Source of the DNA: Bacteroidota bacterium
GTDB lineage: Bacteria; Bacteroidota; Bacteroidia; Bacteroidales; F082
Reading direction: 5' to 3'
Length of the DNA: 64,000 nucleotides
Assembly: GCA_018816765.1 (NCBI GenBank)
Contig: JAHIUX010000011.1
Coordinates: forward strand, 62,001-126,000
Shown: one piece after another, positions 5,376 through 22,978 of the stretch
How positions within the stretch are numbered: the stretch's first letter is position 1
Layout: every line of letters starts with the position of its first letter
Translations under genes and position numbers: made by a program
Notes under the pieces: generated by a model
Seen by the model: only the letters and a program-made list of their open reading frames with translations
What the model was told of the DNA's origin: nothing
Databases searched by the model: none

Positions 5376-6160
5376 CAGCCCATAGAACAGAGGCCTTCCC
5401 TCTCACCCGCATGGCCACCATCGATGTGCTTGAGATGGGGAAACGCAGGCACCATATCACCGCCCTCATCGAACTTGATGTGAGCCTTGCCCGCGAAAAA
5501 ATCAGGCAGCACAACAGCAATGGCGCCCCCCGCATCTCGCTCACCGCCTGGCTCATCAGCGTTGTTGGCACCACGCTCAAGGCACACGAAACCGCAGCAG
5601 CTTTTCGGAGCGGCAAAAACAAGCGCATTATCTTCAACGACATCAATGTGTCGTTGCTGGTCGAAAAAGAGGTTGGCGGTGAGCGGGTGCCTTTTCCGCT
5701 GCTCATCGAAAAGGCCCAGTCGGCCAGCCCGGCCCACATCACCAGGCTCATCAGCGAAGCAAAAGAAGCCAGCCACAGCGACAAAGACCTTGTACTCAAG
5801 CGTAAGTCGGGGCGCATGGAACGGCTGTATCCCTTCCTGCCTGCCTGCCTTCGCCGCATGGTGTGGCGATTTCTGCTCAGTCACCCAAAATTCGCCTACG
5901 GCAAGATGGGGAATGTGGCAATCACAGGCATCGGCATGATGGGAAAGGTGAATGGTTGGTTCATCCCCACAGCAATCCACCCGATTGCCTTTGGCATTGG
6001 GTCGGTGGTGAAAAAGCCCGTGGTGAAAGATGAGGCCATCGTGATCAGGGAAATGCTGCAGATGACAGTACTGCTCGACCACGACGTGATCGACGGCGCA
6101 CAGATGGCCCGCTTTGTCAGCAGCCTGGCGAAAAACATCGAAAATGCGTTCAATCTTTGA
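5372..6160 (+). CDS. 2-oxoacid dehydrogenase E2-like acyltransferase domain protein
   Basis: 262 residues from the ATG at 5372, which overlaps the preceding stop (ATGA). The protein consists only of the catalytic (chloramphenicol acetyltransferase-like) domain of E2 proteins: no lipoyl domain, no E1/E3-binding domain. The active-site motif HxxxDG is present near the C-terminus in LLDHDVIDGAQMARF. INVSLLVEK and the segment ending FGIGSVVKKPVV are also E2-like. Because lipoyl and binding domains are missing, it probably does not work in a dehydrogenase complex; it may transfer an acyl group from CoA to an unknown acceptor. Such stand-alone E2 domains are common in Bacteroidota. Confidence 0.8.
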   Translation: MTAHRTEAFPLTRMATIDVLEMGKRRHHITALIELDVSLAREKIRQHNSNGAPRISLTAWLISVVGTTLKAHETAAAFRSGKNKRIIFNDINVSLLVEKEVGGERVPFPLLIEKAQSASPAHITRLISEAKEASHSDKDLVLKRKSGRMERLYPFLPACLRRMVWRFLLSHPKFAYGKMGNVAITGIGMMGKVNGWFIPTAIHPIAFGIGSVVKKPVVKDEAIVIREMLQMTVLLDHDVIDGAQMARFVSSLAKNIENAFNL

Positions 6161-6278
6161 GAAATGGTCGCTCTGACCAGGGGTAAAATAATTATTTCAG
6201 CCTGTGCCTTGCGCAGGAATATTCTTTGTTAATTTTACTTCATCAAACGCCCTGAAGGCGTTTAAACCACCTAAATAT

Positions 6279-6881
6279 ATGGCCAATCTGCTTGGGCGCC
6301 AGTTGCGAAAACCTACCGGTATTTTTGGACGCATCGTTGCGAAAATGATGACAAGCCGGAATAAGGCTTATTATTCGAATATCATCAGGGAGCTTGCCGT
6401 CAGTCCCGGCGACCGCATCTTTGAAATCGGGTACGGACCCGGGTTGGGGGTTTATCAGATTGCTTCGTCGGGCGATTGCACCGTCCATGGCATTGATTTT
6501 TCATCCCTTATGCACAAAGAAGCCAGCCGAAGGAACAGGAAATTCATCAGTAAAGGCCAGGTGGTGTTGCATTATGGCGACTTGCTTACGGCCAAACCAG
6601 CGCATACCCCTTACGACAAGGTTTTTTGTGTGAACGTCGTCTATTTCTGGAGCGACCTCAGCAAAGCCTTCGGATGTGTGCACGCCATGCTGGCCGGAGG
6701 AGGCAGTTTTCTGATTTTTATGGCTGGCAGCGCCTACCTCAACGCCCTGCCATTCACGTCCGATTTTTGCAAATATTCGATTGAAACCGTTGTGGATACC
6801 TTGAAATCCGTTGGCTTCGACCAGGTTTCATTCACCGAAAATGATGGTTATTACGTCAGGGCAACACGCAAACACCCATAA
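6279..6881 (+). CDS. SAM-dependent class I methyltransferase
   Basis: About 200 residues. The SAM-binding motif I is IFEIGYGPGLG, followed by the acidic loop GIDFSSLM (motif Post I) and YDKVFCVNVVYFW (motif II). The ATG at 6279 is preferred to 6204 because the extra 25 residues have no family counterpart and the 6220-6240 stretch looks more like promoter DNA (TAATTTTA near 6228). The acceptor is unknown; the closest group by look is the UbiE/Methyltransf_11 set. It is separated from the upstream operon by about 120 bp, so it probably has its own promoter. Confidence 0.75.
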   Translation: MANLLGRQLRKPTGIFGRIVAKMMTSRNKAYYSNIIRELAVSPGDRIFEIGYGPGLGVYQIASSGDCTVHGIDFSSLMHKEASRRNRKFISKGQVVLHYGDLLTAKPAHTPYDKVFCVNVVYFWSDLSKAFGCVHAMLAGGGSFLIFMAGSAYLNALPFTSDFCKYSIETVVDTLKSVGFDQVSFTENDGYYVRATRKHP

Positions 6882-6953
6882 ATTGGCATTGATATCGCAA
6901 AGATGAACACCGAATACCAATCCGGGAAAGCTATCCTGTTACACCCACAACCC

Positions 6954-7580
6954 ATGAAAAACATTCGCTTCAGCATCATTATCCTTTTCTTATCTGCTTA
7001 TCCGTCAATCCTTTTTGCGCAACAAAGCGCATACCGTTATGCCTTGGACCCCAACGACACCTTGGTCAGGGACGCCAGGCTGTATGCCGGATTGCTCCAC
7101 CAACACCAGGATTTTTTCCAGCAGGCATTCTCTTATCAGGGCATCGAAACAGGACTGATCCTGAATAAACACCTCATGCTGGGATTGTTTGGCGCTGCCT
7201 TTGTTTCGAACCTGAGCACTGAAAGTCAGTCCGCACCCTTGTATGTGAATATCTGGAAAGCCGGACTCAGCCTGGGCAATCTGTATAAAAGCCATGAAGT
7301 ACTGCACGCTGGCTGGCTGATTCACGTCGGTTATTTTTCGCTGATCGGCAACCAAACCAATATGGCATTGTTTAAAAGCAACGAGGCATCGGTCAGGGTA
7401 AAGGGACTGCTTTTTTCGCCCGAACTGTTTGCTGAGCTCAACCTCACCCGATGGATGAAAATCAGGACAGGGGTGGCATATGGCTTCCACTCCTTCGAAA
7501 AAAACGCCTTTGTCGAAAAAAGCGATCTCCAGCAAATCAGCCTGAATTTTGGATTCTTGTTTAGCAAATTCAGTGACTAA
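6954..7580 (+). CDS. Predicted outer-membrane protein, unknown
   Basis: 208 residues from the ATG at 6954; the upstream ATG at 6903 would put 17 polar residues before the signal peptide. The signal peptide is hydrophobic and ends at about LFAQQ. The mature part has alternating polar/aromatic strands (HLMLGLFGAAFVSN, MKIRTGVAYGFHSF) and ends ISLNFGFLFSKF, as in small beta-barrels. There is no domain I can name. It stands alone between the methyltransferase and a small membrane protein. Confidence 0.55.
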   Translation: MKNIRFSIIILFLSAYPSILFAQQSAYRYALDPNDTLVRDARLYAGLLHQHQDFFQQAFSYQGIETGLILNKHLMLGLFGAAFVSNLSTESQSAPLYVNIWKAGLSLGNLYKSHEVLHAGWLIHVGYFSLIGNQTNMALFKSNEASVRVKGLLFSPELFAELNLTRWMKIRTGVAYGFHSFEKNAFVEKSDLQQISLNFGFLFSKFSD

Positions 7581-7703
7581 CTGATATTTACCTCCGTATC
7601 ATGCCATGCTGACACCTGACTCATTGATGCAAAAATGGCAAGGCATACCATGCATTGAAATAAAAAACCCCTAATATTCGGGCAGCAAATAAATTCAGAC
7701 ACT

Positions 7704-7988
7704 ATGATCAGGGTACATGTAAACCGTATGATTCAAAAGTTCAGGGACAAAGGAGCCTTGTCGGCAGAAACAGCCAGGGACCTCGATGAGCTGGAGGTAA
7801 AACGCCGCCAGTTGTTTCACCGCCTTGTGCAACGCAGGATTTTCATTGAAGCGGCGCCTCAAAAATATTACCTCAATCAGCCGAAATTACTTATCTACAA
7901 CAAAAAGAGGCGCATCATGGTCATCACCATCCTGCTCTTTACCATCTATTTGCTGATTACCGGCATTTACCTGTTGCAAAACCATTGA
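7704..7988 (+). CDS. Small single-span membrane protein, unknown
   Basis: 94 residues: a basic, helical N-terminal two thirds (about 1-70, with RDKGALSAETARDLDELE) and one C-terminal membrane span (VITILLFTIYLLITGIYLL). The helical part looks like a small coiled or winged unit, but I cannot name a family. It may be anchored with its N-terminus in the cytosol, as judged from the many Lys/Arg just before the span. Confidence 0.55.
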   Translation: MIRVHVNRMIQKFRDKGALSAETARDLDELEVKRRQLFHRLVQRRIFIEAAPQKYYLNQPKLLIYNKKRRIMVITILLFTIYLLITGIYLLQNH

Positions 7989-15093: not shown

Positions 15094-15732
15094 ATGGCAA
15101 CTAAATTCGCAGCAATTAGTTGCCAACACCTCCAAAGCTCCAATCGTTTGACCCACAAATCGCACCACCGGTTTCTTCTGCGCAATATGCTGAGCGAATG
15201 CTGTCTGAAACTCATCAGGCTGGTGCTTGAGCAACAAGGCGTTGCCCTGACGAAGGCAAAGCTGGGCGACATCACCGTCAGTTACGACGAGGAGCAGATC
15301 AGCCTTGAAAAGATCAGGGGACTCATTGTTGAGCTGGGCTTCGAGGAAATAAACGACCGGGACGCCATCCTTGTCGAGGAAATCAAACGGGTCGTCGTTG
15401 AATTGGTACACCACACCACCTACAATGCCATGGTGCGCAATTCCGACTTCCTGGTGAGCCGTTTCGACAAGAGCTACCAGCACCTGAGCACCGTTTTCTC
15501 AAAACATGAACACATTACGCTCGAAAAGTATATCATCTTGCAACGGATTGAGAAAGTGAAAGAACTGATTCAGCTGGATGAATTAAGCCTGAGTGAAATT
15601 GCTTTTAGCATGGGATACAGCAGTGTGCAGTATTTGTCGACACAGTTCAGGTCGATTACCAGCTACACCGTTACCGAATACAAAGCACTGCCCGACAAAC
15701 AGCGATTTGGGGCAGGATTAAGCAACACATAA
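15094..15732 (+). CDS. AraC-family regulator with HMA-like N-terminal domain
   Basis: The C-terminal 100 residues hold the AraC DNA-binding domain: ILQRIEKVKELIQLDELSLSEIAFSMGYSS, then VQYLSTQFRSITSYTVTEY. Before it lies a heavy-metal-associated-like fold (NMLSECCLKLIRLVLEQQG, ILVEEIKR), a pattern known for a family of Bacteroidota regulators. The typical paired Cys of true metal-binding domains is incomplete. The start is uncertain: ATG 15094 gives 212 residues, but the family usually begins just before the NML segment, so TTG 15148 or ATG 15187 are also possible. It lies 190 bp upstream of the PqqD operon on the same strand and could control it. Confidence 0.75.
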   Translation: MATKFAAISCQHLQSSNRLTHKSHHRFLLRNMLSECCLKLIRLVLEQQGVALTKAKLGDITVSYDEEQISLEKIRGLIVELGFEEINDRDAILVEEIKRVVVELVHHTTYNAMVRNSDFLVSRFDKSYQHLSTVFSKHEHITLEKYIILQRIEKVKELIQLDELSLSEIAFSMGYSSVQYLSTQFRSITSYTVTEYKALPDKQRFGAGLSNT

Positions 15733-15921: not shown

Positions 15922-16173
15922 ATGAAAATTAAAAACAATATTGCTGTCAGCGAAAACGGATTTGTGTTCAACCCGGCCTCCGGTGAATCCTTTTCGGTGA
16001 ACACAGTAGGCCTCGAGATACTGAATATGCTGAGGAAAGGACATTCGGCTGTGCAAATTATCCAGTCGATCAACGACCATTTTCACGCTGAACCTACGGT
16101 GATTGAGCGCGACCTGAACGATTTTATAGAGACCCTCCGGCAATACCATATGATTGACCATGACGAAGACTAA
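15922..16173 (+). CDS. PqqD-like peptide-binding protein (RRE)
   Basis: 83 residues from the ATG at 15922 (an in-frame ATG at 15859 would add 21 residues that do not look like the family). The sequence shows the PqqD pattern: INNNIAV-like strand, GFVFNPASGESFSVN hairpin, then GLEILNMLRKGHSAVQIIQ and a winged helix to the end. PqqD domains are RiPP recognition elements: they hold the leader part of a precursor peptide and present it to modifying enzymes. Here the gene overlaps the ATP-grasp start by 14 bp, so the two products probably work together. No short precursor gene was seen nearby. Confidence 0.8.
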   Translation: MKIKNNIAVSENGFVFNPASGESFSVNTVGLEILNMLRKGHSAVQIIQSINDHFHAEPTVIERDLNDFIETLRQYHMIDHDED

Positions 16174-17212
16174 GCCCAAATTAACCATCGGCGTCACCGG
16201 GCTTAATGCCATCGACAGTCCCGGTCCGGGTGTTGCCGTCATCAGGGGGTTGAAAGAAGCTGCCTCCTTCGATTGCCGCATCATCGGCCTTTCGTACGAG
16301 TCCCTTGAACCCGGCATTTATATGCACGACCTGGTGGATAAAACCTATGCCATTCCTTACCCCTCGGCAGGAATGGATGTGTTGATGAGCCGCATCGAAT
16401 ACATCCATGAACACGAAAACCTGGATGTAATCATCCCGAATTTTGATTCGGAACTGTATTCCTTCATCAAGCTGTCGCAGCGGCTGAAGTCGATGGGCAT
16501 CCACACCTTTTTGCCCACCCTCGATCAGTTTGAGGAAAGGCACAAGACCAACCTGCCTGAGTTTGGAAAAAAGCACGGACTGTATGTGCCGCGCAGCAAA
16601 GCCATTTACACACCCACTGAAATCAACGCCCTCGAAAAAGAGTATGGCTGGCCACTGGTGGTCAAAGGCAAGTACTATGATGCATCGGTAGCCTACAACC
16701 ATGACCAGGCTAAGGCACAGTTTAACAAAATTTCGGCAAAATGGGGTTTGCCCATCATCATTCAGGAATTTATCCATGGTACCGAATATAATGTTACCGG
16801 CCTCGGCGATGGGCATGGAAACACCATGGCGGCTGTACCGATGCGCAAACAGTATATTACCGACAAAGGCAAGGCCTGGGGAGGTATATCCATTGACGAT
16901 AAAAAGGCCCTTGAACTCAACAGCCAGTTTTTGCGTTCGACCAAATGGCGTGGTGCCTATGAGCTCGAACTGATGAAAGACAAGGCCGGGCATTACTATC
17001 TGCTCGAGATCAATCCGCGTATTCCGGCATGGATATACCTGGCCGTTGGGGTCGGACAAAACATCCCCGAGTCGCTCACCCGTCTTGCTATGAGCTGGCC
17101 CACTGATCCTTACACGGATTATGATGTGGGAAAGATGTTTATCCGCTATTCGTGGGATATGATCGTCGACCTGTCGACTTTTGAACAGATTTCGACCTTT
17201 GGAGAGTTATAA
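16160..17212 (+). CDS. ATP-grasp family ligase
   Basis: 350 residues from ATG 16160; the in-frame TTG at 16154 is less likely. CarB-like ATP-grasp fold: N-terminal Rossmann-like part (LTIGVTGLNA then DVIIPNFDSELY), ATP-binding lysine region PLVVKGKYYDASV, the Mg/ATP acidic segment YELELMKD, and YLLEINPRIPAW with the metal-binding Glu and Asn. Such enzymes activate a carboxylate as acyl phosphate and join it to an amine or thiol. Substrates are unknown. The 14-bp overlap with the PqqD gene suggests that a PqqD-bound peptide is the substrate, as in graspetide-type chemistry, though no standard graspetide precursor is present. A 112-bp gap separates it from the decarboxylase. Confidence 0.8.
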   Translation: MTKTKPKLTIGVTGLNAIDSPGPGVAVIRGLKEAASFDCRIIGLSYESLEPGIYMHDLVDKTYAIPYPSAGMDVLMSRIEYIHEHENLDVIIPNFDSELYSFIKLSQRLKSMGIHTFLPTLDQFEERHKTNLPEFGKKHGLYVPRSKAIYTPTEINALEKEYGWPLVVKGKYYDASVAYNHDQAKAQFNKISAKWGLPIIIQEFIHGTEYNVTGLGDGHGNTMAAVPMRKQYITDKGKAWGGISIDDKKALELNSQFLRSTKWRGAYELELMKDKAGHYYLLEINPRIPAWIYLAVGVGQNIPESLTRLAMSWPTDPYTDYDVGKMFIRYSWDMIVDLSTFEQISTFGEL

Positions 17213-17324
17213 ACAGCTAGGGTAAACGGATGGAAATGTTGCTGGAGATGTCATTTGACGCCGCATGCAGTTAACCGGACCCCTTGCAGAAAAAGTATGA
17301 GAAAGAATATTTAACACAGCCATT

Positions 17325-18686
17325 ATGACAACAAAGAAAAGATACGAGCGTCCGATCATCAAGCGGCTCGAGAGCAATATGCCAAACAAATTTGGCAGCC
17401 GGACCGAATTTCAACCGGTGACACAACTTGAAGATATTGCCGTTAAAGAACTGATAGACGCCTATGGTTCGCCCCTTTTTGTGATTTCGGAGAAGAAAAT
17501 CCGGAAAAACTTCAGGGCAGCCAAACAGGCTTTCGAAACACGCTACCCCAAGGTGCAGTTTGCCTGGTCATACAAGACAAATTACCTGAATGCCGTGTGC
17601 AATGTGTTCCATCAGGAAGGCTCCTGGGCCGAGGTGGTTTCGGGCTTCGAATACGACAAAGCCCTGCGCAATGGTGTCGACGGCAGCAAGATTATTTTCA
17701 ACGGCCCCGACAAATCTGAAGCCGACCTGAAAAAGGCCATCACCAACAACTCACTGATCCATATCGATCACCTCGATGAGCTGTATGCCTTGCAGGAGAT
17801 AGCCAAATCGACAAAACAGCGTCCTAAAGTAGCCATCAGGGTTAATATGGACACAGGGGTATATCCGATGTGGGACCGCTTTGGCTTTAACTTCGAAAAC
17901 GGACAAGCCTGGGATGCGCTAAATAAAATTATGTTTACCGGAACCCTTGAACTTGTTGGCCTGCATACCCATATCGGCACCTTTATGCTCTCGCCCAACG
18001 CCTATGCCGTTGCCGCCTCGAAGCTTGCCGTGCTGGCACAGAAAGTTCAGCAGAAATATGGTCACGAGATCAGGTACATCGACCTTGGCGGGGGGTTCGC
18101 CTCGCGCAACACCCTCAAAGGCTCCTATCTTCCCGGGATCGACACCAATCCGGCCATCGATGATTATGCTGAAGCCATCACCTCGGCACTCATCAACAGT
18201 GAATACAGGCCCAAAACTCCCCCGATGCTTATCCTCGAAACAGGCCGTGCCCTGATTGATGACGCTGCCTGGCTGCTGGGTACTGTGATTGCCAACAAAC
18301 GCCTTTCCGATGGCAAAAGAACCACCATTGTCGACTTTGGCGTCAATATCCTGTTCACTTCCTTCTGGTACGACCACCGTGTTTCGCCGGCTCAGCCTTT
18401 CACGTCCTACACCGAAGACACCGTGATGTATGGCCCTTTGTGCATGAACATCGACGTGATCCGCGAAAACATCAGCCTGCCGCTGCTGCACAAGGGCGAT
18501 CACCTGGTGGTGCACACCGTTGGCGCTTACAATATGACACAGTGGATGCAGTTTATCACCCTGCGTCCAAAGGTGGTGATGATCAGTCCTGAAGGGAAAA
18601 TCAGTGTGATCAGAAACAACGAAAAACTTGAAAATTTGCTCGATCTGGAACAAGTTCCTCCACATCTTGCTAACTTTGAACTATGA
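17325..18686 (+). CDS. Fold-type III PLP decarboxylase with leader-like N-terminal tail
   Basis: 453 residues of the diaminopimelate/ornithine decarboxylase group. The PLP lysine is K84 in WSYKTN; other family marks are HTHIG (H214, H216), GGGF (255-258), ETGR (305-308, usually EPGR), C373-x3-D377 and GAY (400-402). The first 30 residues are not part of this fold: MTTKKRYERPIIKRLESN has Y7-x-x-P10-x-I12, the motif used by RiPP leader peptides to dock on PqqD-like domains. A PqqD-like gene sits two genes upstream. Chain length is some 30 residues above usual DAP decarboxylases, which is accounted for by the tail. The substrate is open; the context does not suggest lysine synthesis. The stop overlaps the next start (ATGA). 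Confidence 0.85.
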   Translation: MTTKKRYERPIIKRLESNMPNKFGSRTEFQPVTQLEDIAVKELIDAYGSPLFVISEKKIRKNFRAAKQAFETRYPKVQFAWSYKTNYLNAVCNVFHQEGSWAEVVSGFEYDKALRNGVDGSKIIFNGPDKSEADLKKAITNNSLIHIDHLDELYALQEIAKSTKQRPKVAIRVNMDTGVYPMWDRFGFNFENGQAWDALNKIMFTGTLELVGLHTHIGTFMLSPNAYAVAASKLAVLAQKVQQKYGHEIRYIDLGGGFASRNTLKGSYLPGIDTNPAIDDYAEAITSALINSEYRPKTPPMLILETGRALIDDAAWLLGTVIANKRLSDGKRTTIVDFGVNILFTSFWYDHRVSPAQPFTSYTEDTVMYGPLCMNIDVIRENISLPLLHKGDHLVVHTVGAYNMTQWMQFITLRPKVVMISPEGKISVIRNNEKLENLLDLEQVPPHLANFEL

Positions 18687-20881
18687 TATCCGGAAAACTC
18701 AGGTCAGCTTTTCCGCTCTTCTTACAAAGCGTAAGCAATAGTTACACCCAGATTTTTTTTGCCAAGCACAAAATCATGGGGCTGTTGCTAATGCTGGTAA
18801 CCCTGTTCGACCTGTATGCCGGCATCAGCGGGCTCATTGCCCTGGTAACGGCCAACACCGCAGCCTACCTGGCGGGTTTGAGCAGGCAGCAGATTATCAA
18901 CGGATTGTATGGCTTCAATCCCTTGCTTGTTGGCCTGGGACTCGGGGTTTACTATCAGCCCGGCCTGAGTTTTTATGTCATCCTGGTGTTCATCTCACTG
19001 CTCACCCTCTTCATGACGGTATCACTCGAAGGCGTGATGTACAAATACGGCCTGCCCTTTTTAAGCATCCCTTTCCTGATCGGCATCTGGATCGTTAGCA
19101 TCAGCACCCGGCAAATCACGAACCTTGAGATCAGCGAGCGGGGTATTTACACGCTGAATGAAATGTATTCGCTGGGCGGCCTACCCCTGCTCAGGGTATA
19201 CGAGTGGTTCAATGAAATTAGCTGGCCTATGCCCGTCAAGATATATTTCAGGTCGTTGGGGGCGATCTTCTTTCAGTATCACCTCTTTGCCGGCCTCATC
19301 ATTGCCTTTGGGCTTGTTTTCTGGTCGCGCATAGCCTTTGTGTTTTCGCTCATCGGTTTTGCTTCGGCCTATATGTTCTATCTGCTGATTGGCTTACAAA
19401 TCAGCGAAGTAAGCTACAGTGCCATTGGCTTTAATTTCATTCTCACTTCGATTGCCATCGGTGCATTTTTCGTGGTTCCTTCGAAATATTCGCTGGTCTG
19501 GGTGATGGTATCCATCCCCCTGCTGGCTTTCCTTACCACAGCAGGATCGGCCGTGATGTGGATCTTTCAGCTGCCGGTATTTTCGCTGCCGTTCAATGTG
19601 GTGGTTATACTGCTGCTTTATGTGTTCAGGCTGCGCGAGCGTTACCACGGAAAGCCGGCCTTGGTGCTGGTGCAGCAATTCAGTCCTGAAAAAAACCTGT
19701 ACAGCAGCCAGATTAACCTCAACAGGATGGCGCACCTCGGGCGTATCTCCATCAAGCTGCCTTTTTGGGGAAAATGGCTGGTTACCCAGGCTATTGATGG
19801 CGAACACACCCATAAGTCGGCCTGGAAGTATGCCTGGGACTTTGAGATGACCGATGATGAAGGCAAGACTTACCGCGGCGACGGACTTCAGGCAACGGAT
19901 TATTACTGCTTCAGCAAGCCCGTTGTTTCGCCTGCCGATGGCACCATCGCAGAACTGGAAGACGGACTTGAAGACAATGCCATTGGCGATTCGAACCTAC
20001 GGAATAACTGGGGAAACTCAGTGGTGATCAATCATGGCGGAGGCCTGTTTTCGCAGCTCAGCCACCTGAAAAACAACAGCATACAGGTTCAGAAAGGACA
20101 ATATGTAAAGGCAGGTGAACAGCTGGCGCTTTGTGGCAACTCGGGCAGGTCGCCCTATCCTCACCTGCATATGCAGATGCAAACGTCGCCCGAAATTGGT
20201 GCCACCACCCTCGATTATCCCTTTGCCTCCTATGTGGCTTTTGAAGACGGACAAACCTCATTCCATGTCTCTTCCCAACCCCGCAAGCAGCAGACCGTGT
20301 TCCAAAACCACCCGAATGAACTGATCGATCATGCCTTTCATTTTATCCCCGGACAGGAAATGAAGTGGAAATATGAAGGTGAACAGCCTGCTCAGGGCTT
20401 CAGCTGGACTGTTGAAACAAACATCTACAACGAGTCGTGCCTGGTTTGCAGCCGCACAGCTGCCAAAGCATGGTTCATGAAATCGCCTGATATATTTATG
20501 TTTACCCATTTCGAAGGCAACCGGAACAGCGAACTGTATTGTTTTTACCTGGCCGCATACCAGGTGATTACCGGTGTTCATCCCGGGCTTGAAGTGGACG
20601 AAAAGATCACTGTTGCGGTGTATCATCACCGTGGATTGAAGTTATTACAAGACATTGTGGCGCCTTTTTATTCCTTTTTAGCGGTCCATTTCAGGCAATG
20701 GCAATCGGGCATGAAACAGGATCTTGATGGCTCGCGCATGCTGTTGAGGTCAGTGATCAGCTACAGTGCTTTCGGCAAAATTGTGAAGACCAATAAGTTT
20801 GAGATACTGCTGTCAGATAACCAACTCAGTGAAATCCACTTTTTTCGCAACAATTTGGAGGTAAAACTATTCCGTGACTAA
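18683..20881 (+). CDS. Urea-transporter-like domain fused to M23 peptidase
   Basis: 732 residues. Residues 1-310 hold about ten membrane spans of the urea transporter family; the signature NGLYGFNPLLVGLGLG lies near residue 73. After it comes an M23 (LytM) zinc peptidase domain: EHTHKSAWKYAWDFEM (H375/H377 and D near 388) and HLHMQM (H494, H496), the HxH zinc ligand pair. The last 200 residues (about 530-732) have no family I can name. Such UT-M23 fusions are found in Bacteroidota; the job is unknown. The peptidase would face the periplasm, where it could cut peptidoglycan or a modified peptide. It overlaps its neighbours by 4 and 8 bp. Confidence 0.85.
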   Translation: MISGKLRSAFPLFLQSVSNSYTQIFFAKHKIMGLLLMLVTLFDLYAGISGLIALVTANTAAYLAGLSRQQIINGLYGFNPLLVGLGLGVYYQPGLSFYVILVFISLLTLFMTVSLEGVMYKYGLPFLSIPFLIGIWIVSISTRQITNLEISERGIYTLNEMYSLGGLPLLRVYEWFNEISWPMPVKIYFRSLGAIFFQYHLFAGLIIAFGLVFWSRIAFVFSLIGFASAYMFYLLIGLQISEVSYSAIGFNFILTSIAIGAFFVVPSKYSLVWVMVSIPLLAFLTTAGSAVMWIFQLPVFSLPFNVVVILLLYVFRLRERYHGKPALVLVQQFSPEKNLYSSQINLNRMAHLGRISIKLPFWGKWLVTQAIDGEHTHKSAWKYAWDFEMTDDEGKTYRGDGLQATDYYCFSKPVVSPADGTIAELEDGLEDNAIGDSNLRNNWGNSVVINHGGGLFSQLSHLKNNSIQVQKGQYVKAGEQLALCGNSGRSPYPHLHMQMQTSPEIGATTLDYPFASYVAFEDGQTSFHVSSQPRKQQTVFQNHPNELIDHAFHFIPGQEMKWKYEGEQPAQGFSWTVETNIYNESCLVCSRTAAKAWFMKSPDIFMFTHFEGNRNSELYCFYLAAYQVITGVHPGLEVDEKITVAVYHHRGLKLLQDIVAPFYSFLAVHFRQWQSGMKQDLDGSRMLLRSVISYSAFGKIVKTNKFEILLSDNQLSEIHFFRNNLEVKLFRD

Positions 20882-22370
20882 ATTCCACTGGCCGATTTTC
20901 ATCCCTTTCATGGTTTTCCTGGCATTCCTGTCAGGAGAAATGGCACTTGCCCAAAGCCGCCTTGATTTCAGGAGTGCCGACAGCCTCACCTATCAGCTAT
21001 ACCAGCAAGCGCATTGGCGTCCGCTAAGAAAAGCCGGTAAGGAAGTGCTGTCGTCAGGCATCGATTATCAGTATCTTCGGGCACGGCTTGGTTATGCCAA
21101 TTTTGCCACCGGCAACTACATCGGGGCCGAAAAACATTTCAGCAGGGCCCTGGGTTTCAATGCCTATGATGAGTTTTCACAGGCAATGTTGTATTATTCA
21201 CTGAAGGCGACCTTAAAACACACCGAAGCCGGGAGTGTTTACCGGTCGCTATCTCCTTCGTTGCAGCAAAAGGTCGCGCCGGGAAAAAGCTTTAAGCTGT
21301 TTGAAGCCCATGCCGATTACGGAACAGTTTTGCGCAGCAAGGCCGATGGGCTCAATGCTGCCATACTTGCGGGGTCCGACAGCCTTTACGGCGAAGAACA
21401 GATTTATGGCAACGGCAACATCCTCGATGCCGGCCTTAAGCTTCAGCTGATGCCCGGGCTGTTGTTCTATGCCGGCGGTCAGTCAATCAGCATCCCCTTG
21501 AGGAATCATTTTGTGGTCACCGACTATGCCTTCGCAACGGATTCCATTGTCAGGGATACGATCTACCACTATAACAGTTATTATTATTCGCTGCAGAGCC
21601 GGCAACACGATACGGTATTCCATCACCGGCTGAGCCAGCAATCGGTGTACGTTCAGGCGATTTTTTCGCCCTCGGCAAAGATCAGGTTCACCCTTGGCAT
21701 GCATATGCTTCAGGTGAAACAAACCAACACCTATTCGCAACAGGAAACAGTTACCTGGTCCGACACAGCCTGGGTGAATACCGAAACAGCGGAGTTGTCG
21801 CTGGTGGAGGCACCGCTCACCCAAATGCGCTTTGCCGACTCGGTGCGCACCTTAAACGATTATTCGCTAATGGCCAATGTGCGGATCAATGCCGGGGTTT
21901 TTTCACCTGAATTTGGTTATGCCTATTCAAAACTCAATTATTCAAAAAAAATACAGCAGCTGCAGGCCGGACTTTTTATTATGCCAATGGGAAATCTCAA
22001 TCTATACAGCCACAGCGTGTTTGCGTTTATGATTACTCAGTCGAAACAATCGACCGTATTCAAGCAAACCATTGGCTTCAACATAGCCCGTCCGTTGTGG
22101 TTTGAGGCCTCGGTGCTCACCGGTAAGCTGAACCTCTTTGCCGACCAGAATGGCTACATCATCTACAATATGCCCGATGAAGTTTCGTTAAAACTTGAAT
22201 CGGTACTGACATGTCTGATTGGTAAAAATCTGCAGCTTTCGCTGCGGGTTCAGCATACGCAAGCCAAAAGGCCTTATTTTTGGTACAACAACACAGAATC
22301 GGCACTCAATAAATCACAATACAGTATTCAATCACAAACGATCATTGGAGGCGTCAAATGGATATTCTAA
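20874..22370 (+). CDS. Outer-membrane protein with TPR-like N-terminus
   Basis: 498 residues, GTG start at 20874 overlapping the preceding stop by 8 bp; a signal peptide ends at about MALAQ. Residues 30-150 hold one or two tetratricopeptide-like helices (RARLGYANFATGNYIGAEKHFSRAL); the rest is a run of amphipathic strands, ending QTIIGGVKWIF, which suggests a barrel of about 16 strands. No family name can be given. Being in one operon with RRE, ligase and decarboxylase genes suggests a role in moving or placing the product at the outer membrane. Confidence 0.65.
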   Translation: MTKFHWPIFIPFMVFLAFLSGEMALAQSRLDFRSADSLTYQLYQQAHWRPLRKAGKEVLSSGIDYQYLRARLGYANFATGNYIGAEKHFSRALGFNAYDEFSQAMLYYSLKATLKHTEAGSVYRSLSPSLQQKVAPGKSFKLFEAHADYGTVLRSKADGLNAAILAGSDSLYGEEQIYGNGNILDAGLKLQLMPGLLFYAGGQSISIPLRNHFVVTDYAFATDSIVRDTIYHYNSYYYSLQSRQHDTVFHHRLSQQSVYVQAIFSPSAKIRFTLGMHMLQVKQTNTYSQQETVTWSDTAWVNTETAELSLVEAPLTQMRFADSVRTLNDYSLMANVRINAGVFSPEFGYAYSKLNYSKKIQQLQAGLFIMPMGNLNLYSHSVFAFMITQSKQSTVFKQTIGFNIARPLWFEASVLTGKLNLFADQNGYIIYNMPDEVSLKLESVLTCLIGKNLQLSLRVQHTQAKRPYFWYNNTESALNKSQYSIQSQTIIGGVKWIF

Positions 22371-22978
22371 AACGAACAGCAGCAGTCATTGTCATCCTAA
22401 GCTGGTCAGGACTGGCCCTGGCCCAGGATTTTGACAAACAATACAAGGCCTTCGAAAAATCGTATCAGCTCGAAACCTCAGGCGACTATGCAACAGCCAT
22501 TAAGGAGCTGCAGGCCGTTTATCACGCCGAGGATTATGAAACCAACCTCAGGCTTGGCTGGTTGATGTATGCGTCAGGCAGGTTCACCGAAGCGCTACCT
22601 TACTATCAGAAATGCATCGAAATACGCCCGCTTAGCATTGAGGCCCGCTTTGGTTTTGTGAACCCTGCAGCGGCCCTCGGAAACTGGTCGCAGGTAGAAG
22701 CGCGTTATGACGAAATTCTGAAGGCTGACCCGATGAACACCCTGGCCAATTACCGCATGGGGATGATCCTCTATGGCCGGGAAGATTATTCAGGCGCACT
22801 GAAATACTTCACCAGGGTGCTGAATCTCTACCCTTTTGATTACGATACCACTATCATCGCCGCATGGACGCAGTTTAAGCTGGGTAAACTCAGGGAAGCA
22901 AAAATTATGTTCCAGAAAACCCTGCTCATTAAACCAAACGACAGCAGCGCTTTGCAGGGTCTTGCCCTGATCAAATAG
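22358..22978 (+). CDS. Tetratricopeptide repeat protein, exported
   Basis: 206 residues with a signal peptide (IVILSWSGLALAQ) and at least four TPR units, for example EALPYYQKCIEIRPLS, ARYDEILKADPMN and GALKYFTRVLNLYP. TPR proteins bind partner proteins; here it probably acts in the periplasm with the preceding barrel. The ATG lies 13 bp before the stop of that gene, the last overlap of the operon. Confidence 0.75.
   Translation: MDILKRTAAVIVILSWSGLALAQDFDKQYKAFEKSYQLETSGDYATAIKELQAVYHAEDYETNLRLGWLMYASGRFTEALPYYQKCIEIRPLSIEARFGFVNPAAALGNWSQVEARYDEILKADPMNTLANYRMGMILYGREDYSGALKYFTRVLNLYPFDYDTTIIAAWTQFKLGKLREAKIMFQKTLLIKPNDSSALQGLALIK

Follow-up and report, generated by a model that had tools for sequence, protein, structure and literature searches.

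The window analysed here, a 64,000-nucleotide stretch of a Bacteroidota bacterium of the order Bacteroidales (NCBI GenBank assembly GCA_018816765.1, contig JAHIUX010000011.1, positions 62,001 through 126,000 of the forward strand), carries genes for a PqqD-like protein, an ATP-grasp ligase and a pyridoxal phosphate (PLP) decarboxylase. The PqqD-like protein is of the kind that serves as a recognition element (RRE) in pathways to ribosomally synthesized and posttranslationally modified peptides (RiPPs), and the three genes form a conserved Bacteroidota operon. An initial annotation had noted that the decarboxylase starts with a leader-like extension and had proposed that the enzyme itself is held or modified by the RRE/ligase pair; Pfam matches bear out the coordinates and the reading that it gave for all three genes. 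The features concerned, in window positions, are these:

15922..16173, + strand: PqqD-like discrete RRE, 83 amino acids (aa; PF05402, 4.5e-11)
16000-16002, 16111-16113 and 16123-16125, + strand: codons of the pocket residues N27, D64 and F68 of the PqqD-like protein
16160..17212, + strand: ATP-grasp ligase, carbamoyl phosphate synthetase (CPS)-large-subunit/PRK12767-like (PF15632, PF02655)
17325..18686, + strand: PLP decarboxylase, alanine-racemase fold, 453 aa (PF02784, PF00278)
17325..17414, + strand: leader-like N-terminal tail of the decarboxylase, residues 1-30 (from conservation and AlphaFold2 [AF2] disorder)
17343..17360, + strand: putative docking block Y7-E8-R9-P10-I11-I12 (from tail conservation)
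17388..17396, + strand: second block K22-F23-G24 (from tail conservation)

The PqqD-like gene runs from an ATG at 15922 to a stop codon ending at 16173 (frame scanned from 15859), and its product scores 43.4 bits against PF05402, above the cut-off of 23.4 for the PqqD family. As annotated, this gene lies upstream of the ligase gene and overlaps it, by 14 bases, since the ligase ATG is at 16160.

About 30 residues at the N terminus of the decarboxylase are additional to the enzyme body, because alignments with the nearest named families and solved relatives begin at residue 31 or further on. The Y7-x-x-P10-x-I12 motif that had been read in this tail is present (M1...Y7 E8 R9 P10 I11 I12...N21 K22 F23 G24). 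Its conservation was followed in 114 homologous loci, made up of the best 80 of 584 relatives and 34 loci from a phylum-wide set of 395 Bacteroidota genomes (the window's own genome counted in), and in 15 loci added later, found around genomes with a Phe7 tail; 12 of 194, 8 of 128 and 1 of 98 genomes had the enzyme in those follow-up searches. All sampled loci are from Bacteroidota. The tail is readable in 113 of the 114 loci (L053 is cut at a contig end) and, with the window and the later loci, in 129 rows; the tails were found via the motif itself, some of the rows are nearly the same (L113 and L114 fully so), and none of the readable ones lacks the motif. L113 and L114 lie at the two ends of a single 3.74-Mb contig (C1 of genome G124) with identical decarboxylase rows, and this double locus is probably an unclosed circular overlap.

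Two blocks of the tail are fixed, [YF]ExPx[ILV] and K-F-G, the latter a second conserved element beyond the Y7/P10/I12 pattern of the initial annotation. Conservation of that pattern, which had been suggested as a check, is complete: Tyr or Phe at position 7, Pro10, and Ile, Leu or Val at position 12 occur in 129/129 tails, as does K22; the glutamate of the first block is found in 127/129, G24 in 128/129 and Phe at position 23 in 118/129, with Tyr, Ile, Met or His otherwise. Counted from Y7 as zero, the first set alone gives Y/F in 113, E in 112, P in 113, I/L/V in 113, K (+15) in 113 and G (+17) in 112 of 113 tails. A full-length alignment of 46 rows likewise shows no change at P10 or K22, and synonymous codon changes are seen at the tail P, E, K and G. 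The loose motif [YFW]xxPx[LIVFA] occurs within the first 30 residues of 149 of the 1030 open reading frames (ORFs) examined that are 200 aa or longer; 114 of the 149 have the tail-type pattern and 35 lack it. One such match is thus not rare; its retention is unusual, and judged from these alignments the conservation lies far above chance. In an AF2 monomer model based on an alignment of 46 orthologues, a predicted local distance difference test (pLDDT) score of at least 90 is reached by 310 of the 453 residues, and residues 8-27 fall below 50; such conservation of a segment predicted to be unordered is what docking motifs typically show.

The strongest evidence that this tail may dock to the PqqD-like protein is a coupled change at Tyr7 of the tail and Asp64 of its putative partner. 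In the first set, the six Phe7 tails are exactly the six without Asp64 (five have Tyr, one His), and 101/101 Tyr tails occur with Asp64 (Fisher p 5.5e-10 for the pairing, relatives treated as independent). Among the later loci with PqqD, the six new Phe tails all occur with Tyr64 and the six new Tyr tails all with Asp64, so that overall Asp64 accompanies 107/107 Tyr tails and 0/12 Phe tails; two loci read by eye, L204 and L205, also combine a Tyr tail with Asp64. Asp64 is the sole column of 83 in the PqqD-like protein (119 rows) that separates the two groups, in that no residue is common to both, and Tyr7 is the sole such column of 29 in the tail (129 rows). In the decarboxylase body, 0 of 423 columns separate Tyr-tail from Phe-tail rows (68 rows).

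The position of Asp64 is that of a known leader contact. By sequence, the best Protein Data Bank (PDB) matches of the PqqD-like protein are the lasso RREs TbiB1 and TfuB1. The leader contacts of LppB map onto it without gaps (N33=N27, D70=D64, F74=F68, T30=F24, Y60=F54, M78=L72, L83=M77), and the residues of the YxxP pocket (LppB N33, D70 and F74) are met by N27, D64 and F68 at the same spacing. N27 is Asn in 107/107 rows of the first set and in 116/119 with the later loci, F68 is Phe in 102/107, and the most divergent loci (L112, L113, L115, L116 and L145) retain N27, D64 and F68. Variability is lower in the 13 pocket columns than in the rest (mean entropy 1.04 vs. 2.05, p 5.6e-4, the columns not being independent). 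Most of the pocket that YxxP leaders occupy in crystal structures of RREs is kept in the PqqD-like protein. In the available excerpt of the LppB study, N33A nearly abolishes complex formation, D70A lowers it, and D70 holds the leader tyrosine hydroxyl, a group that Phe does not have (PMC13381572).

Decarboxylase, tail and ligase mark the same 34 of the 395 genomes; co-occurrence of the PqqD, ligase and decarboxylase genes in Bacteroidota was a check that the initial annotation had called for. The tailed decarboxylase is found in these 34 at 46-100% identity with alignment from residue 1-4, and the next relatives in the 395 genomes reach at most 31% identity and mostly align from residue 26-41 (odd rows: G389 from 17, G346 from 47). 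A profile of the tail picks out the same 34 genomes, each time at the start of a 449-496 aa frame, and ligase matches at E 1e-25 occur in these and no other. PqqD lies upstream of the decarboxylase in 105 of 114 loci; of the nine without it, eight are contig ends, and L064 has PqqD and ligase on another contig. Twelve of the 15 later loci have PqqD; L195 is cut off by the end of its contig, and in the fragmented assemblies of L184 and L187 (genomes G514 and G571) decarboxylase, ligase and PqqD sit on three contigs each, all of them kept. That the genes are kept even where they are not adjacent, in three genomes, points to joint function. A PqqD-ligase fusion, which would be a direct sign of contact, was not seen, the longest ligase frame being 399 aa. 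Two departures from the usual layout were noted: L057 has two PqqD genes (812-1087 and 6343-6612), of which the first is some 5.5 kb away from the ligase, and L116 carries, between pqqD and ligase, a 661-aa FG-GAP-like protein (5926-7911, - strand; named by eye), the only pqqD-ligase insertion of more than 300 bases among the 105 loci.

A free precursor peptide was sought in three ways and rejected as a component of the locus, in agreement with the earlier statement that the operon holds none. The tail profile detects no standalone copy in the 395 genomes, two further marginal, unexamined matches (E 0.006 and 0.008) aside. Sense-strand ORFs that encode 20-110 aa counted from their first Met and show [YF]xxPx[ILV] among the initial 30 residues gave 21 scattered matches within 5 kb of the decarboxylase in the 114 loci; those of L010 and L025 are alike and lie inside the ligase gene stretch, that of L030 is the decarboxylase tail itself ahead of an in-frame stop, and the remainder are unrelated by eye. 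The L030 stop falls about 65 residues into a decarboxylase that begins at about 2485, in one metagenome-assembled genome, and may be an assembly error or mark a pseudogene. Among 1081 short intergenic ORFs with any motif, at most 5 kb away in the 114 loci, the widest similarity group spans five loci and is antisense, near -1460. The separate precursor gene that defines a RiPP pathway was therefore not found, near the locus or by tail motif genome-wide. In a Pfam scan of the eight neighbouring genes, a urea-transporter (UT) domain and M23 are the only peptidase- or export-type domains, and a lasso B2 peptidase and an asparagine-synthetase-like cyclase are absent.

Both enzymes look catalytically competent. 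Decarboxylase residues K84, presumably the PLP lysine, and H214, E305, C373 and Y402, which we take to be catalytic in alanine-racemase-fold decarboxylases, are invariant in 46 rows, so the enzyme appears to keep the active-site residues of active family members. Its nearest solved structure, by sequence and by fold, is N-citrylornithine decarboxylase (7kh2; 31-32% identity), followed in fold by diaminopimelate and D-ornithine/D-lysine decarboxylases, with BtrK lower. It scores 241.5 bits against NF041039 (N-citrylornithine decarboxylase FslC; cut-off 500) and 226.6 bits against TIGR01048 (diaminopimelate decarboxylase LysA; cut-off 297.9), below both cut-offs. In its C-terminal GPxC motif the Cys is followed by Met, as in citrylornithine decarboxylase, where the aligned LysA has Glu; this would fit an N-substituted substrate rather than free diaminopimelate. 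That the tailed enzyme is the organism's LysA was rejected, given the TIGR01048 score and a separate, above-cut-off LysA in 22 of the 26 tailed genomes (of 34) that were searched. No LysA above the NCBIfam cut-off was found in the window's genome, G031, G124 and G365, where the tailed enzyme might serve as LysA; the window's genome is 96.8% complete, and its absent match may reflect either an assembly gap or another lysine route. The ligase (AF2 model, pLDDT 92.4) matches ATPgrasp_Ter, ATP-grasp_3 and PRK12767-like families and, in fold, the CPS-large-subunit-like 2pn1 best, then biotin carboxylases, CPS and L-amino-acid ligases. Its K169, E270, E283, N285 and R287 are invariant in 37 rows; we take K169 to be the ATP lysine and E270/E283/N285 the Mg ligands (E..E-x-N), and the ligase would thus retain the ATP lysine and metal ligands of active ATP-grasp enzymes.

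We consider it probable that the decarboxylase tail docks in the groove of the PqqD-like protein, whether as a scaffold or with loading of K22. In this model, the first 30 residues would be an RRE-docking peptide grafted onto a metabolic enzyme and bound in the manner of YxxP leaders in lasso-type RREs: Tyr7 would sit in pocket 1, hydrogen-bonded by PqqD Asp64, Pro10 would be fixed by Asn27 and Phe68, and Ile12 would occupy pocket 2. RREs deliver the peptide that they bind to a partner enzyme, here most likely the ligase, given its gene's overlap with pqqD; by analogy with RiPP systems, PqqD might also hold the ligase and so unite it with the decarboxylase. Of the possible purposes we think it the likeliest, at about even odds, that such a complex passes a single small substrate, derived from an amino acid, between its ligation and its decarboxylation steps. 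The earlier proposal that the decarboxylase is held by the RRE is supported, at the level of comparative sequence data, by the strict co-occurrence, the pocket conservation and the coupled Tyr7/Asp64 change. Of the two outcomes that the initial annotation had named as refuting it, a tail motif that is not conserved and a separate precursor gene in related loci, neither was seen.

Several observations weigh against this model. The Phe tails form one clade in a tree of ligase plus decarboxylase (Shimodaira-Hasegawa-like approximate likelihood ratio test [SH-aLRT] 98; 62 of 68 rows, leaving out L114, L115, L116, L184, L187 and L194) and one group in a decarboxylase-only tree (68 rows; support 10). 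The Tyr/Asp switch is therefore counted as a single evolutionary event, and a reading of the covariation that ignores the tree was rejected. N33 and D70 recur widely among PQQ and lasso RREs (PMC13381572), which makes the presence of N27 and D64 by itself a weak argument. Pocket position 57 is mostly Asp or Glu where LppB has Val63, positions 26, 29 and 61 vary, and three close relatives (L190-L192) have Ser in place of N27. The AF2 model is monomeric, and the tail could be ordered in a dimer or complex. The PqqD-ligase contact is supposed from the gene overlap. The Ser27 rows, all of one genus (g19), also have an altered tail (YERPT or YAPPT), and these loci are a possible second coupled variant.

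Docking would be the same if the tail were in addition a substrate, with the ligase coupling an amino acid to Lys22 and the decarboxylase acting on the residue thus attached. The tail would then serve as a carrier arm in cis, in place of the separate carrier protein found in the butirosin scheme (BtrJ/BtrK/BtrI), where BtrJ is the ATP-grasp loader of BtrI. We regard this as the main alternative, though a tentative one. Lys22 is present in every readable tail, 15 residues past Tyr7 in a segment without predicted order; K22-F23-G24 is thus a candidate for the site that the ligase contacts or uses as acceptor, and the ligase's own active-site residues are intact. Same-fold enzymes take tethered substrates, namely Glu-BtrI for BtrK and modified microcin C for MccE, in the available part of PMC7857480, and in the LppB-LppA complex the leader beyond about +9 has no obvious RRE contact and is proposed to meet modifying enzymes (PMC13381572, excerpt). 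K-F-G lies outside the known RRE-bound stretch, which suggests that the ligase may modify the tail; the block may also be just a binding epitope, and no release enzyme was recognised. Members of this ATP-grasp subfamily are not known to modify proteins. The fullest version, in which the decarboxylase would be its own carrier, with PqqD presenting the tail, the ligase charging Lys22, the arm entering the decarboxylase active site and the product leaving via the urea-transporter/M23 protein and envelope proteins encoded downstream, we think unlikely.

Two further explanations were weighed. An RRE with a ligase usually implies a precursor peptide, and short genes are easily overlooked; an ordinary RiPP pathway might then have an unlinked or unrecognised precursor, the tail being a copy that tunes the RRE or competes for it. 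This is very improbable: apart from the two marginal matches the tail profile returned decarboxylase tails only, the YxxP short ORFs near the genes are scattered, any-motif ORF groups span at most 5/114 loci, and the PqqD, ligase and decarboxylase genes are all retained where they are not neighbours, although a precursor of another motif may lie elsewhere in the genome. We give as little credence to the idea that the tail is a structural part of the decarboxylase, a dimer contact or an active-site lid, its YxxP likeness accidental and without a tie to PqqD. Chance alone does produce the loose motif in a few per cent of N termini, and AF2 was run on a monomer; yet the tail is of low confidence in an otherwise confident model despite its extreme conservation, and the one column of PqqD that changes with Tyr7 is the residue known to contact the leader tyrosine.

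Several known systems resemble this one in part. Butirosin BtrJ/BtrK/BtrI and microcin C MccE are alike in having an alanine-racemase-fold decarboxylase, and the butirosin system also has an ATP-grasp loader; their decarboxylase acts on a tethered substrate, whereas no carrier protein occurs in the eight neighbouring genes scanned here, and the enzyme's own tail would dock or carry. In borosins (OphMA type), a precursor-like peptide is fused to an enzyme that itself modifies the peptide's C terminus; the fusion is alike, but in the present system recognition is left to separate proteins. Graspetides share an ATP-grasp ligase and a leader-bearing polypeptide, if the tail is a substrate; here, however, the ligase matches ATPgrasp_Ter/ATP-grasp_3 and PRK12767-like families, the RRE is discrete and no precursor was found. 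The N-citrylornithine decarboxylases FslC/FigC (7KH2) offer the closest solved body and share the Met after the GPxC Cys, but at 31-32% identity, below the NCBIfam cut-off and with the tail outside the alignment. The RRE-leader complexes of lasso/LPP systems (TbiB1 5V1V, TfuB1/FusB1 6JX3, LppB 9X8Z) have the same pocket residues at the same spacing and share the peptide [Y/W]xxPx[L/V/I/F/A], which belongs there to a precursor and here to the N terminus of a 453-aa enzyme; unlike in those systems, no lasso cyclase or leader peptidase is encoded among the eight neighbours.

RREs are readers of precursor peptides and are used for finding RiPP clusters. If tail docking is correct, PqqD genes without a precursor need not be failed RiPP searches, and RRE/leader pairs can act as natural enzyme-docking modules; the PqqD-like protein seems to have evolved in step with the tail that it would grip, and the data suggest that a peptide-recognition tool may have been reused for docking enzymes. 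The Tyr/Asp switch offers a ready-made pair for swap experiments, and a pathway of ligase, decarboxylase and urea-type transporter in 34 of 395 sampled Bacteroidota genomes becomes testable. If K22 is charged, the system would be categorically new; in its fullest version, RiPP recognition would have become an assembly line working in cis. In the available excerpts of RiPP papers, the partner of an RRE or a peptide-modifying ligase is taken to be a precursor peptide (PMC7470986, PMC12710340, PMC8939145, PMC10352776), and no description of an RRE bound to an enzyme tail was found in the open-licence literature searched, as far as its accessible text extends. Within that literature, RRE-leader recognition is already known, and what appears new is an enzyme tail as the RRE's partner.

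Downstream of the decarboxylase, the window contains the following neighbours:

18683..20881, + strand: fusion of a urea-transporter domain with an M23 peptidase domain (Pfam UT, M23)
20874..22370, + strand: protein without Pfam or NCBIfam match, a neighbour in many loci
22358..22978, + strand: tetratricopeptide repeat (TPR) protein, a conserved neighbour

The urea-transporter/M23 fusion is kept in most loci with sequence long enough; it is possibly an export or envelope part, and export of the product is a guess. Upstream of pqqD, an AraC-type regulator at 15190-15732 is syntenic in many close relatives and has a weak N-terminal CopZ-like match (E 0.005).

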